From positions 1 through 51,323 of the forward strand of contig JACPAL010000008.1 in assembly GCA_016180855.1 (NCBI GenBank): 51,323 bases of DNA, read 5' to 3'. Numbering within the stretch: position 1 is the first letter of the stretch; every line of letters begins with the position of its first letter. The position numbers and the translations under genes are program-made. Below the pieces are notes generated by a model that made no database searches, was not told where the DNA came from, and saw only the letters and a list, made by a program, of their open reading frames with translations. This DNA is from Deltaproteobacteria bacterium. Its GTDB lineage: Bacteria > UBA10199 > JACPAL01. Below are positions 2,156 through 5,812 of this stretch, piece after piece.

Positions 2156-2311
2156 TGTATTCTCAATTATTTTTTATAATAAAATTTATAAAATAATTAT
2201 TATATTTCATATAGTTATTATTAAATACGTATTCTAAAAACAAATTAAACAAAAAAATAAACTGGACTCGCCGCTGCCGTTCGCCGATAATTCCTTTAAG
2301 AGGCCTTTGCC
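2156..2311. promoter_or_regulatory. AT-rich divergent promoter region
   Basis: This spacer separates the divergent starts of uvrB and the TIGR02147 gene. Positions 2160-2260 are extremely AT-rich compared with the flanking genes. A 10-bp palindrome AATACGTATT lies at 2224-2233, and several TATAAT-like hexamers occur on both strands, so no single promoter can be picked with confidence. The composition and divergent layout are observed. The regulatory role is inferred. Confidence 0.4.
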
Positions 2312-3139
2312 ATGCCGGATATCTTCAACTATCTCAACTACCGCCACTACCTCAAGGACTACTATTCCGAAAAAAAGGGGAAAAAGGGGTCCCATTTCTC
2401 CTTCAGGTCCTTTTCGAGGCTCGCCGGTTTAAGTTCTCCCAATTTTTTGAAGCTCGTGATTGAAGGAAAGAGGAATCTGGGGGGCGACGGGATTCAGAGC
2501 TTCATCAAGGGGCTCAGACTCAACAAGGAAGAATCGGTCTTTTTTGAGGACCTGGTTCATTTCAATCAGGCAACAACGGATGAAGAAAGAAATCAGCACT
2601 ATCAAAGGCTCTCCCGCTCCCGCCGGTACCGCCAGGTCAAACAGATTGAGAAGGATTACTTCGTTTATTTTTCACGTTGGTATTACGCCGCCATTCGTGA
2701 GTTAGTACTCCTCCCGGAGTTTAAGGAAGATCCAATCTGGATTGCCTCGAAACTGGCCCCTGCCATCACACCGAATGAGGCACGGGTTGCCATTGAACTC
2801 CTGCTCGAGCTCGGATTCATAAAAAGGGACAAGAATGGCAAACTGACGCAATCGGAAAGAAATATCACAACCGAACGGGAGGTCGCTTCCCTTGCAATCA
2901 AGAATTTTCATCGGCAGATGATTGAGAAGGCGGCAGAATCGATCGAAAAGACTTCTCATGAAAAGCGGGATATCTCCTCACTGACCGTCGCCTTGTCTAA
3001 GGAGAAGTTTGAGGAGACGAAGAGAAGGATCCAGGAATTCCGTCGGGAGTTGAATGTGCTTCTCTCCGAAGAGGGAAAAGCCGATTCGGTCTATCAGATC
3101 AATTTTCAGATCTTCAACCTCACGGAGGTCCGGTGGTGA
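2312..3139 (+). CDS. TIGR02147 family protein (DUF4423-like)
   Basis: The 275-residue product matches the pattern of the TIGR02147 family. The N-terminus is aromatic and tyrosine-rich (MPDIFNYLNYRHYLKDYY), followed by a helix-turn-helix-like stretch (FSRLAGLSSPNFLKLVIEGK, residues 34-53). A long helical DUF4423-type region then includes the typical RYRQV...YFSRWYYAAIREL segment around residues 110-135. The family is large and paralogous in Fibrobacter and occurs in Bdellovibrio relatives. Its biochemical role is not established, though the fold and N-terminal motif suggest a DNA-binding regulator. It overlaps the following lipoprotein gene by 7 bp, so the two are probably co-translated. ATG 2312 is the only start that gives the complete family N-terminus. 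A weak AAGAGG-like ribosome site precedes it. Confidence 0.85.
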   Translation: MPDIFNYLNYRHYLKDYYSEKKGKKGSHFSFRSFSRLAGLSSPNFLKLVIEGKRNLGGDGIQSFIKGLRLNKEESVFFEDLVHFNQATTDEERNQHYQRLSRSRRYRQVKQIEKDYFVYFSRWYYAAIRELVLLPEFKEDPIWIASKLAPAITPNEARVAIELLLELGFIKRDKNGKLTQSERNITTEREVASLAIKNFHRQMIEKAAESIEKTSHEKRDISSLTVALSKEKFEETKRRIQEFRRELNVLLSEEGKADSVYQINFQIFNLTEVRW

Positions 3140-3795
3140 TCTACCCAAAGTGGCTTATTCTCTTAGCCTTCCTGTCTCTCCTGATCACTGGCTGTCTCGG
3201 TATAGGAACGGAGACGGGAAATCCCCAGCGTGAAGGAACCAGCTCTGCCGATGGCGAGACGGGAAGTGCGGCATCAGAGGAGGAGGAGACAAGCTCCTAT
3301 TCCCAGGATGAATTCGGGGTCGTTGTCGAATATTCGGAGGACTGGAGCCTTTCAGAAGAGTTTCCGATTAGACAAACCGCAGGGGCCGTTGATGACAACA
3401 CCTTCGCATCAGACGCCGGAGGTGATGATGTCGCCGCCTCTTCACCTGGAAGTCGGGGAATCGATACGACCAATGCCCCCTCAACCGTATTTACAGATGG
3501 TGAAACTGAAGTAACGATATTCTTCGTAACCCTCGACACAGCACCAGCAAGCCTGCTGGGATATCTTGAAGAGACGTTTCCTGACCTGTCGAAAACAAGC
3601 TTTGTCCCCTTTTCCAACAGCTACATCTCAGGTTACCAATATGACGATCCGGCAGTTGGCTCCAATGGAGGCGATCAGCAGGAGTATTTTTTCTTAAAAG
3701 GATCCCGCCTCATCTACGTCGTAGCCGAGATTTTCGCCGATAAAGACGGCCGAACAAACTTTAACACCCTCATCAACTCCCTCCGTTTTCAATAG
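3133..3795 (+). CDS. Lipoprotein of the GTETGNP type, unknown function
   Basis: The 220-residue product begins with a lipoprotein signal: a hydrophobic core LILLAFLSLLITGC with the lipidated cysteine at residue 21. The mature protein starts GIGTETGNP, an N-terminal signature I associate with lipoproteins that sit beside TIGR02147 genes. A low-complexity Ser/Glu/Gly linker follows to about residue 55. The C-terminal domain (residues 55-220) resembles small alpha/beta folds that handle a post-translational or secretion role, but I cannot name it. The start is GTG 3133 or GTG 3136, inside the end of the preceding gene. This tight overlap implies that the predicted regulator and the lipoprotein act in one process. 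Confidence 0.8.
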   Translation: MVIYPKWLILLAFLSLLITGCLGIGTETGNPQREGTSSADGETGSAASEEEETSSYSQDEFGVVVEYSEDWSLSEEFPIRQTAGAVDDNTFASDAGGDDVAASSPGSRGIDTTNAPSTVFTDGETEVTIFFVTLDTAPASLLGYLEETFPDLSKTSFVPFSNSYISGYQYDDPAVGSNGGDQQEYFFLKGSRLIYVVAEIFADKDGRTNFNTLINSLRFQ

Positions 3796-3800
3796 AGGGC

Positions 3801-3818
3801 TGTATTCTTCAGAATACA
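3801..3818. promoter_or_regulatory. 18-bp inverted repeat, candidate operator
   Basis: TGTATTCT and AGAATACA form a perfect 8-bp inverted repeat around a 2-bp centre, just after the stop of the lipoprotein gene and 75 bp before the start of the beta-propeller gene. No T-run follows, so it does not look like an intrinsic terminator. The small spacer and symmetry fit a homodimeric repressor site. The role is inferred. Confidence 0.35.
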
Positions 3819-3892
3819 ATTTCATCCTCGCCAAGTAGCGCAAGGGGACTCCTTTCAACGATAATTGGTACAAGAAACAGAAAGGAGTCTTT

Positions 3893-5812
3893 ATGAAAAA
3901 CATTCTGTCAGGAACGATCATCGGAGGGTTTTCACTCCTCCTCGTTACACTTTCCGCCTGTAACGCAACGATGGAGGATGATGTCGATCAAGTCATCATT
4001 GACCCCGATCAACCCCAGGTTCGAATTGATTACAAGGATGGTCCGTCAAATTGCGAACGTCTGGATCAATATCTTAACGGATTTAAAGAGGCAGGGACCA
4101 ACGTGCCGACCTCCAACCCGGTGGCCTCATCACCAATGAATCAGTCGGATGGTGCAACCGCCAGTAGCGAGCCCGTAAATGACACTTCCTCTGACAACGG
4201 TCCAGAAGAGATGCCCGGCAGTCCACTTCAGGTGAGGGAGGCGGATATCGTTAAAGTGGATGGAAACAGGATTTATCTCGTCAGGCAGAAAGCGGGTGAT
4301 TCTAACTCCTCCTTGATGCTCTACCATCTGGAAAATGAACAATTTTTTCTCCAAGACAGCCTCAACATCAGGGGACTCTCAAAGGAGTTTCACCTCAAAG
4401 GGGATACGCTTCTCATTATTGGAGAGTCTAATAATCGAAGTTTTGAGACAAAATTGACCCTCATCAAACAAGACCAAAAAGGGAGACTCGTTGTGCAGCA
4501 GGAGACAAACTTAAGCAAGGCAAGATACATCACCTCACGCACGGTTGGTAGCACAGCCTATATCGTTCTTGAGTCATCTCTCCCTGTTTTACCCCCTTTC
4601 TGTTCTTGTGAGAGGACACTCGTACCCTATGAGGAGAAGTCCTCTGAATCGAAGAGACTAACGATGACAACGGTTCCATCTCAAAACCGTCTCATTTCAA
4701 TTCTCTCCTTCGAAATGGAACAAGAAAAACCAGACCTCTCGGCAAGATCAGTCGTTATTCAGGGGACCAATCCAATCGTCTCGGTGAATGAGGAGTCGAT
4801 CTACATCGGGACCTCTCTCATGAGAGGGGATTATTCCCAGATCTTCAAATTTGGCCTAAACAAGGAAGGGACAGAGGTCTCTTTTGAGGCGGCCGGTATG
4901 ATCCCGGGACACCTCTCCACAGCGTTTGTAGGCGGGGAGTACAATGACCAGTTCTCCATGGATGAATACGAGGGGTATCTGCGCGTTGCAACGACCTCCG
5001 GACAGCTCCGTCGATCCGGAAGATCCGGGACTGAGAGCTCCCTGTTTGTATTGAAGCAAGAAGGTGAGGAGCTCAAAATGGTTGGCACCTTGAGGGACCT
5101 TCATGCGGGTGAGGCGATCTACGCAGTCCGCTTTGTGGGGGATCGTGGCTATGTGGTGACCTTCAAGAAGATTGATCCTCTTTTTATTATTGATCTTTCC
5201 AATCCGGAAAACCCCGAAAAAGTAGGTGAGTTGGAGGTTCCGGGCTTTTCCACATACCTCAAACCACTTGATGAGCATCATCTCCTCACGATCGGTAAGG
5301 AGGCGGATGATCAGGAATCGTTCGCCTGGTTTCTCGGAGTTAAACTTTCCCTCTTTGATGTGAGTGATCCCTCTAAACCTCAGTTGGTTGACAGTGTTGT
5401 GATCGGTGAGCGAGGAACCGAATCGGAGGCATTGCGTGATCACCGTGCCTTCAATTATTTCAGCGAGAGAAATCTTTTGGCGATCCCCGTGGATCTGGTC
5501 GTTACAACACCTAACAACGATGAAGGCTGGCGATCCGTTGGCACTGTCGATCATTCAGAGGAACAGATTTGGAAGGTCGATCCCTCAAAGGGGTTTACCT
5601 TCATAGGGGCGATTCGCCACGATGATCTCCTCAATAATGAGACACCTGCCCAATGCTACGACTGGGACCGCCCTTATACTGAACGAGCCACCTTAAGGAG
5701 GGCCCTCGAGGTTGACGATCAACTCGTGACGCTCTCGGACAAAGGGCTCAAGTCAAATAGCTTTGAGGATCTCGCAGAGATTTCGTCGATCCTCTTTCCG
5801 CAGGACGGGTGA
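3893..5812 (+). CDS. Secreted beta-propeller domain lipoprotein
   Basis: The 639-residue product has a signal peptide ending in the lipobox LSAC (cysteine 23), so it should be a membrane-anchored lipoprotein. After a Ser/Pro/Asn-rich linker (about residues 55-110) comes READIVKVDGNRIYLV, the entry motif of the secreted C-terminal beta-propeller family (Pfam Beta_propel, COG4880), distantly related to WD40. Repeating blade-like strands continue to the C-terminus, with conserved segments such as LRDLHAGEAIYAVRFVGDRG and DPLFIIDLSNPENPEKVGEL. The catalytic or binding role of the family is unknown. A ribosome site AAAGGAG lies 5 bases before ATG 3893. It follows the lipoprotein gene by 97 bp and may form an envelope module with it. 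It ends 8 bp from the convergent cysS gene. Confidence 0.9.
   Translation: MKNILSGTIIGGFSLLLVTLSACNATMEDDVDQVIIDPDQPQVRIDYKDGPSNCERLDQYLNGFKEAGTNVPTSNPVASSPMNQSDGATASSEPVNDTSSDNGPEEMPGSPLQVREADIVKVDGNRIYLVRQKAGDSNSSLMLYHLENEQFFLQDSLNIRGLSKEFHLKGDTLLIIGESNNRSFETKLTLIKQDQKGRLVVQQETNLSKARYITSRTVGSTAYIVLESSLPVLPPFCSCERTLVPYEEKSSESKRLTMTTVPSQNRLISILSFEMEQEKPDLSARSVVIQGTNPIVSVNEESIYIGTSLMRGDYSQIFKFGLNKEGTEVSFEAAGMIPGHLSTAFVGGEYNDQFSMDEYEGYLRVATTSGQLRRSGRSGTESSLFVLKQEGEELKMVGTLRDLHAGEAIYAVRFVGDRGYVVTFKKIDPLFIIDLSNPENPEKVGELEVPGFSTYLKPLDEHHLLTIGKEADDQESFAWFLGVKLSLFDVSDPSKPQLVDSVVIGERGTESEALRDHRAFNYFSERNLLAIPVDLVVTTPNNDEGWRSVGTVDHSEEQIWKVDPSKGFTFIGAIRHDDLLNNETPAQCYDWDRPYTERATLRRALEVDDQLVTLSDKGLKSNSFEDLAEISSILFPQDG

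Follow-up and report, generated by a model that had tools for sequence, protein, structure and literature searches.

The window analysed here is a stretch of 51,323 nucleotides from a Deltaproteobacteria bacterium of the UBA10199 lineage (assembly GCA_016180855.1, the whole of contig JACPAL010000008.1). It contains three consecutive genes for a putative envelope system: a regulator of the TIGR02147/DUF4423 family, a lipoprotein carrying the motif TETGNP shortly after its signal peptide, and a second lipoprotein with a PF09826-type beta-propeller, which lies behind an 18-bp palindrome (Table 1). Every element described in the first-pass annotation of this DNA is present. The 7-bp overlap of regulator and lipoprotein genes reported there is obtained with the GTG at 3133; however, the GTG at 3136, which gives a 4-bp GTGA overlap, is the likelier start, since this is the commonest junction in the family.

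Table 1. Features of the regulator-lipoprotein-propeller locus (positions in the window).
Feature	Position	Strand	Basis
TIGR02147/DUF4423 regulator, 275 amino acids: Xre-type helix-turn-helix, winged helix, C-terminal helix	2312–3139	+	families and predicted model
Codons of helix-turn-helix helices 2–3 (residues about 34–51), whose residues vary with operator bases	2411–2464	+	covariation
Degenerate operator (predicted) CGTATTCTAAAAACAAAT in the regulator's own promoter, left half-site only	2228–2245	+	half-site at −84
Predicted promoter of the regulator-lipoprotein operon, TGGACT-17-GATAAT	2263–2291	+	
TETGNP lipoprotein, predicted PsbP-like fold	3136–3795 (first GTG at 3133)	+	sequence, Foldseek
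TETGNP codons, beginning five residues past the lipobox cysteine	3208–3225	+	
Palindromic operator (predicted), 18 bp, TGTATTCTTCAGAATACA	3801–3818	+	
−10 element GATAAT of the predicted propeller promoter; palindrome centre at about −62.5	3860–3865	+	
PF09826/COG4880-type beta-propeller lipoprotein, 639 amino acids, LSAC lipobox	3893–5812	+	

Regulator and lipoprotein genes are paired as a rule across the TIGR02147 family, whose partners are many and include the propeller. Neighbourhoods were taken from the window's class together with 80 named ones from other groups (Bdellovibrionota, Myxococcales, Fibrobacterota/Chitinivibrionia, Desulfobacteraceae and others), which yielded 194 distinct TIGR02147 genes whose downstream DNA was sufficiently long. 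A lipoprotein gene within −80 to +150 bases followed 161 of them, compared with 76 of 1138 other open reading frames (ORFs). In 108 of the 161 cases the two genes overlap or abut, the modal junction being a 4-bp overlap (76 of 161). The downstream lipoprotein carries [TSVI]xxGNP after 97 of the 194 regulators and a looser form after 132, whereas only 7–11 motif lipoproteins (about 1%) follow the 1138 control ORFs, and some of these probably belong to operons of the order regulator-propeller-lipoprotein. Several of the misses are variants such as TETGTT, TEVSNP and TETGNS, or signal peptides lost by the filter. The window genome encodes eight TIGR02147 paralogues (up to 12 per genome were counted within the class), all of which have a partner lipoprotein, seven downstream and one, with TETGSS, upstream (locus L279). 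At L173, L174, L105, L114, L152 and L169 no partner lipoprotein was detected at the expected place; some of these regulators are low-scoring, and this minority may represent a separate subgroup or strays.

The motif is specific to these partners. In the window, the signal peptide of the lipoprotein ends in LITGC and is followed by LGIG and TETGNP; by pattern, the lipoboxes ITGC of this protein and LSAC of the propeller end their signal peptides, and lipidation of both is predicted. Across the partner lipoproteins, which are diverse and otherwise unrelated to each other, the motif lies at a median of 8 residues past the lipobox cysteine. In 1.75 Mb of flanking DNA with 331 lipoprotein-like ORFs away from TIGR02147 genes, five raw matches were obtained and no genuine case: two were alternative starts of an adjacent partner, one was the contig-edge locus L072, and two were non-credible lipoproteins. 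Furthermore, none of 20 distant T[ED]xGNP matches in the DNA of whole genomes was a lipoprotein; all were out of frame or within unrelated proteins, and TxxGNP was rejected as a chance or general lipoprotein motif. It is possible, though in our view doubtful, that TxxGNP is a sorting or anchoring tag of surface lipoproteins, which TIGR02147 proteins regulate because the expression of such lipoproteins is switched. The position just past the lipobox in otherwise unrelated proteins fits this explanation, as does the Desulfobacteraceae propeller that itself carries the motif. However, a general tag would be expected without a TIGR02147 neighbour as well, whereas the flanking DNA and the distant matches contain no lipoprotein that bears the motif regardless of a neighbouring regulator, and the one-to-one coupling of the genes would need another reason. 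The specificity of the motif, together with a weak covariation described below, suggests a regulatory role of the tag.

Two further observations concern the partner lipoproteins. In the Fibrobacterota/Chitinivibrionia (L206–L256), the motif shifts to SETGNA- or SETTNG-like forms, and many of the partners have apparent carboxypeptidase-regulatory-like repeats after it. Bdellovibrionota partner lipoproteins at L183, L186, L190, L199, L203, L211 and L213 share ICxxLxxC...C and form another partner type, with the propeller often beside their regulator.

The window lipoprotein matched no curated family at its cut-off; the match to PsbP_2 (PF18933) reached 15.6 bits, below the gathering cut-off of 27. 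Its first-ranked Foldseek match was CyanoP (E-value 4.8e-4, probability 1.00, template modelling score 0.43 by query length). The predicted fold is thus like that of PsbP/CyanoP/DcrB-type proteins, but the identity is only 14%, and the likeness comes from one model of moderate confidence (predicted local distance difference test, pLDDT, 73.9).

The arrangement of regulator, lipoprotein and propeller is far beyond chance. The third gene matched the Beta_propel family PF09826 with 350.2 bits (gathering cut-off 22.4) over model positions 11–494 of 495. Within the window's class, 25 PF09826 genes occur in 23 of 46 genomes, and 20 of the 25 adjoin a TIGR02147 gene of the same orientation; three of the remaining five lie at contig edges, among them L072 with a lipoprotein beside it, and two elsewhere (L277, L278). 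A second sample, drawn from the propeller side, covered 192 genomes from the phylum of an Oligoflexia genome. Here, 9 of 12 canonical propellers have a TIGR02147 gene within about 1.5 kb, one of the other three is near a TDTGNP lipoprotein, and two have neither in the available flanks. The co-occurrence expected in the first-pass annotation is therefore found in both samples, and the adjacency counts rule out the propeller as a random neighbour. The gene order regulator-lipoprotein-propeller is found in the window, at L058, L062–L067, L070 and at other loci, and regulator-propeller-lipoprotein at L059, L060, L061 and L075, where the lipoprotein motif is TDVGNP or VDVGNP. In the second phylum, propeller-regulator and divergent pairs are among the orders. 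In two Desulfobacteraceae it is the propeller that comes after the regulator and bears TDIGNP or TDVGNP. In a tree built from 192 TIGR02147 proteins, the association with the propeller changes about 11 times over 27 cases; the genes are therefore not one inherited block. The proposed self-contained envelope system with a dedicated regulator accordingly holds as a conserved three-gene module. Judged by their lipoprotein signals alone, its products would act in the envelope. Separately, the second phylum contains proteins of 983–1212 amino acids with partial PF09826 matches (L298–L306, L308, L309), mostly away from TIGR02147 genes, which look like a different architecture.

The regulator matched TIGR02147 with 277 bits (cut-off 50; model positions 1–271 of 272) and DUF4423 (PF14394) with 160.9 bits (gathering cut-off 30). 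Its predicted model (pLDDT 87.8) has a HigA-type helix-turn-helix (HTH) on residues ~8–90, with a Z-score of about 8 to HigA, and an ArsR/MarR-type winged helix on residues ~111–187. A search by sequence for relatives of solved structure returned none that was credible, and Foldseek with the whole model gave no match at an E-value of 0.001 or below, the resemblance being at the level of domains. Among the structure matches listed for the model there is no tetratricopeptide repeat (TPR) type, an absence that does not exclude TPR.

The palindrome between genes two and three, TGTATTCTTCAGAATACA, is perfect and has the form TGTATTCT-N2-AGAATACA with the spacer TC. Allowing up to 3 mismatches, the window contains no other match (0.09 expected), and the 2.2-Mb genome contains no other perfect one. 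The second-best genome match, TGTTTTCTTTAGAAAACA with 2 mismatches, precedes another TIGR02147 paralogue by 67 bp, and one 3-mismatch match lies upstream of the lipoprotein-TIGR02147 operon of the paralogue C6. The three-mismatch scan, with 16 matches on the two strands together as against 12 in the control, is near chance and thus does not allow further targets to be named. The same TGTATTCT palindrome stands between lipoprotein and propeller in four genomes (window, L066, L071 and G001, the last at L111). Upstream of 187 TIGR02147 genes, palindromes of the pattern YGTNNNC-N4-GNNNACR with a score of 9.5 or more were found in 39 regions, compared with 2 in reversed sequence and about 1.6 elsewhere. 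The inner bases of the operator track the recognition helix: regulators with SPNF mostly go with TGTATTC, those with TSNF with TGTGTTC, and those with SSGF with TGTTTTC. HTH residues 32, 35, 43, 44 and 48 are among the top columns covarying with operator positions 4–6.

The spacing of the predicted promoters is conserved as well. In the window and in G001, the GATAAT of the propeller promoter begins 59 bases from the start of the palindrome, despite diverged DNA between the two. The regulator promoters of both genomes have a degenerate half-site (at −84 and −86, respectively) with GATAAT 58 bases downstream, and TGGACTC and CGATAAT are kept in G001 with unchanged spacing. When 44 sites are taken together, the highest-scoring promoters cluster at offset 58/59 (mean score 7.17 compared with 5.51, z 7.9, 0 of 5000 permutations); TTG...17...TAnnnT emerges at this offset, and 58 stands out over other offsets. 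The operator would therefore be centred at −61.5 or −62.5 of the predicted −10/−35 promoters, and both values occur in the window. Class I activators such as CRP typically bind at this position. In the C6 paralogue (L279:4441–4458), the lipoprotein precedes the regulator, and a palindrome lies upstream with a TTGAAG-17-TATAAT promoter at offset 58; the operator therefore goes with the operon and not with the regulator gene. A link between TIGR02147 proteins and such palindromes, as proposed in the first-pass annotation, gains support from site enrichment, recognition-helix covariation and promoter spacing.

Starting from the pairing, the motif specificity, the conserved module, the operator family and the promoter spacing observed by computation, we propose that the TIGR02147 protein is most likely a class-I-like activator of its own lipoprotein operon and, in the window, of the propeller; direct binding, dimerisation, and activation rather than repression, are inferred here. 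TIGR02147 proteins would thus be dimeric Xre-type transcription activators, each dedicated to one envelope lipoprotein. Regulator and TxxGNP lipoprotein would be made from one mRNA by coupled translation. The regulator would bind TGTATTCT-N2-AGAATACA as a strong site at about −62 of the propeller promoter, and, in its own promoter, the degenerate copy centred at −61.5, so that lipoprotein and propeller are switched on together by class-I-like activation with weak positive autoregulation. The lipoprotein would be the envelope-side member, and the activity of its regulator is probably reported or partly set by it. Co-transcription of all three genes had been made a test of the module in the first-pass annotation; because a separate promoter is predicted for the propeller behind the palindrome, this gene is probably co-regulated and not strictly co-transcribed.

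We assign a probability of roughly 0.55 to this explanation as a whole, that is, a dedicated activator with its TxxGNP lipoprotein and a palindrome-driven propeller. Several points weigh against it. A clear palindrome is found at only about a fifth of the TIGR02147 promoters; many module loci of the window's class have none (e.g. L058, L060–L063 and L065), and a search of the propeller promoters of the second phylum for a palindrome of the window form found none. The covariation of operator and regulator is uncorrected for ancestry (40 sites, 27 clusters at 60% identity), and columns outside the HTH also score. A site at −61.5 is compatible with activation but does not prove it.

The TIGR02147 protein could also be an autorepressor with the palindrome as its repressor site, in which case the lipoprotein would merely be a regulated target and TxxGNP unconnected with regulation. 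Many Xre-type proteins whose HTH resembles that of TIGR02147, such as HigA and the C-proteins, repress their own operons, and a secondary promoter peak at offset 26 places the −35 element over a palindrome arm. That peak is partly trivial, however, since the right arm NNNACA resembles a −35 element; the strongest peak sets the operator outside the core promoter, and the confinement of the motif to TIGR02147 partners also speaks against the autorepressor, which we regard as unlikely.

No more probable, in our judgement, is that the regulator reads the lipoprotein before export. The uncleaved precursor, or a TxxGNP N-terminal peptide, would then bind the DUF4423 domain, and the state of export or processing would set transcription, comparable to RRNPP pairs and secretion-coupled regulators. 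The coupled translation at the 4-bp overlap and the specificity of the motif are in favour, and TIGR02147 columns covary more strongly with the motif positions than with those of the lipobox; but this covariation is not separable from ancestry and extends across the two domains, neither a peptide nor a complex is known, and the model predicts a winged helix, with no type like the TPR repeats of RRNPP receptors among the matches listed. As a tentative extension of the activator proposal, a signalling system may exist across phyla, in which every TIGR02147 activator has one lipoprotein partner of its own and reads the TxxGNP of this partner before export or as a returned fragment, and in which the state of an envelope protein controls its own gene and helpers. 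If so, one cell of Bdellovibrionota, Fibrobacterota, UBA10199 and relatives would operate several of these pairs in parallel, each pair using a separate operator code. That the genes are ordinary unrelated neighbours kept in order by vertical descent is very improbable, given two phyla, the changes of association on the tree and several gene orders (regulator-lipoprotein-propeller, regulator-propeller-lipoprotein, propeller-regulator-lipoprotein and divergent), even though related genomes often contain paralogous TIGR02147 genes.

Upstream of the three-gene group, uvrB (143–2155, − strand) is divergent from it; cysS-ispF-ispD-carD is convergent with it, ispF, ispD and carD being named from their sequences. 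A second TGTATTCT half-site, at 2156–2163, abuts the uvrB start codon and is kept in G001 (−156/−159 relative to the start of the regulator). It may be part of the uvrB leader or connect uvrB with the regulator.

TIGR02147/DUF4423 genes are numerous in little-studied groups and without described function, and, in line with the first-pass annotation, we found no open-access paper that gives one. The open-access library searched contained nothing on TIGR02147, TETGNP, the TxxGNP motif or the pairing. DUF4423 appears there only as a table entry, for Bd3700, among proteins that the predator up-regulates while growing inside prey (PMC12546842), and PF09826 only in a benchmarking example (PMC12950615). 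With an operator family predicted for it, a code in the recognition helix, a geometry of activation and a partner lipoprotein that bears a new motif, the family now has a testable role. PF09826 proteins and many 'hypothetical' lipoproteins become interpretable as outputs of dedicated regulators.

The window regulator belongs in full length, with scores above the two cut-offs, to TIGR02147/DUF4423 (PF14394), the 'Fibrobacter succinogenes paralogous family'. The family entries name neither a function nor an operator or partner; the pairing, the operator family and the activator spacing are added here. Likewise, the third gene encodes a full-length member of the COG4880/PF09826 beta-propeller family, whose function is not described and which is newly linked here to a dedicated regulator. 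With Xre-type regulators such as HigA antitoxins and restriction-modification C-proteins, TIGR02147 shares the HTH fold and a palindromic operator, but it has an additional winged-helix domain, its partner is a lipoprotein and not a toxin, and its predicted operator is at −61.5 and not over the promoter. In the RRNPP regulator-peptide pairs, for example PlcR-PapR and Rgg-SHP, an HTH regulator gene is likewise coupled to a downstream exported product with a short conserved element; here, in contrast, that product is a whole, often large lipoprotein, and the C-terminal domain of the regulator is a predicted winged helix, with no TPR type among the structure matches listed. The Bacteroidetes lipoprotein export signal is a short motif near the lipidated cysteine of unrelated lipoproteins, as is TxxGNP, which, however, differs in sequence and is found only beside a dedicated regulator gene. 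The parts are thus of known kinds (HTH activator, lipoprotein and propeller), whereas their one-to-one coupling, the motif and the operator code appear to be undescribed.

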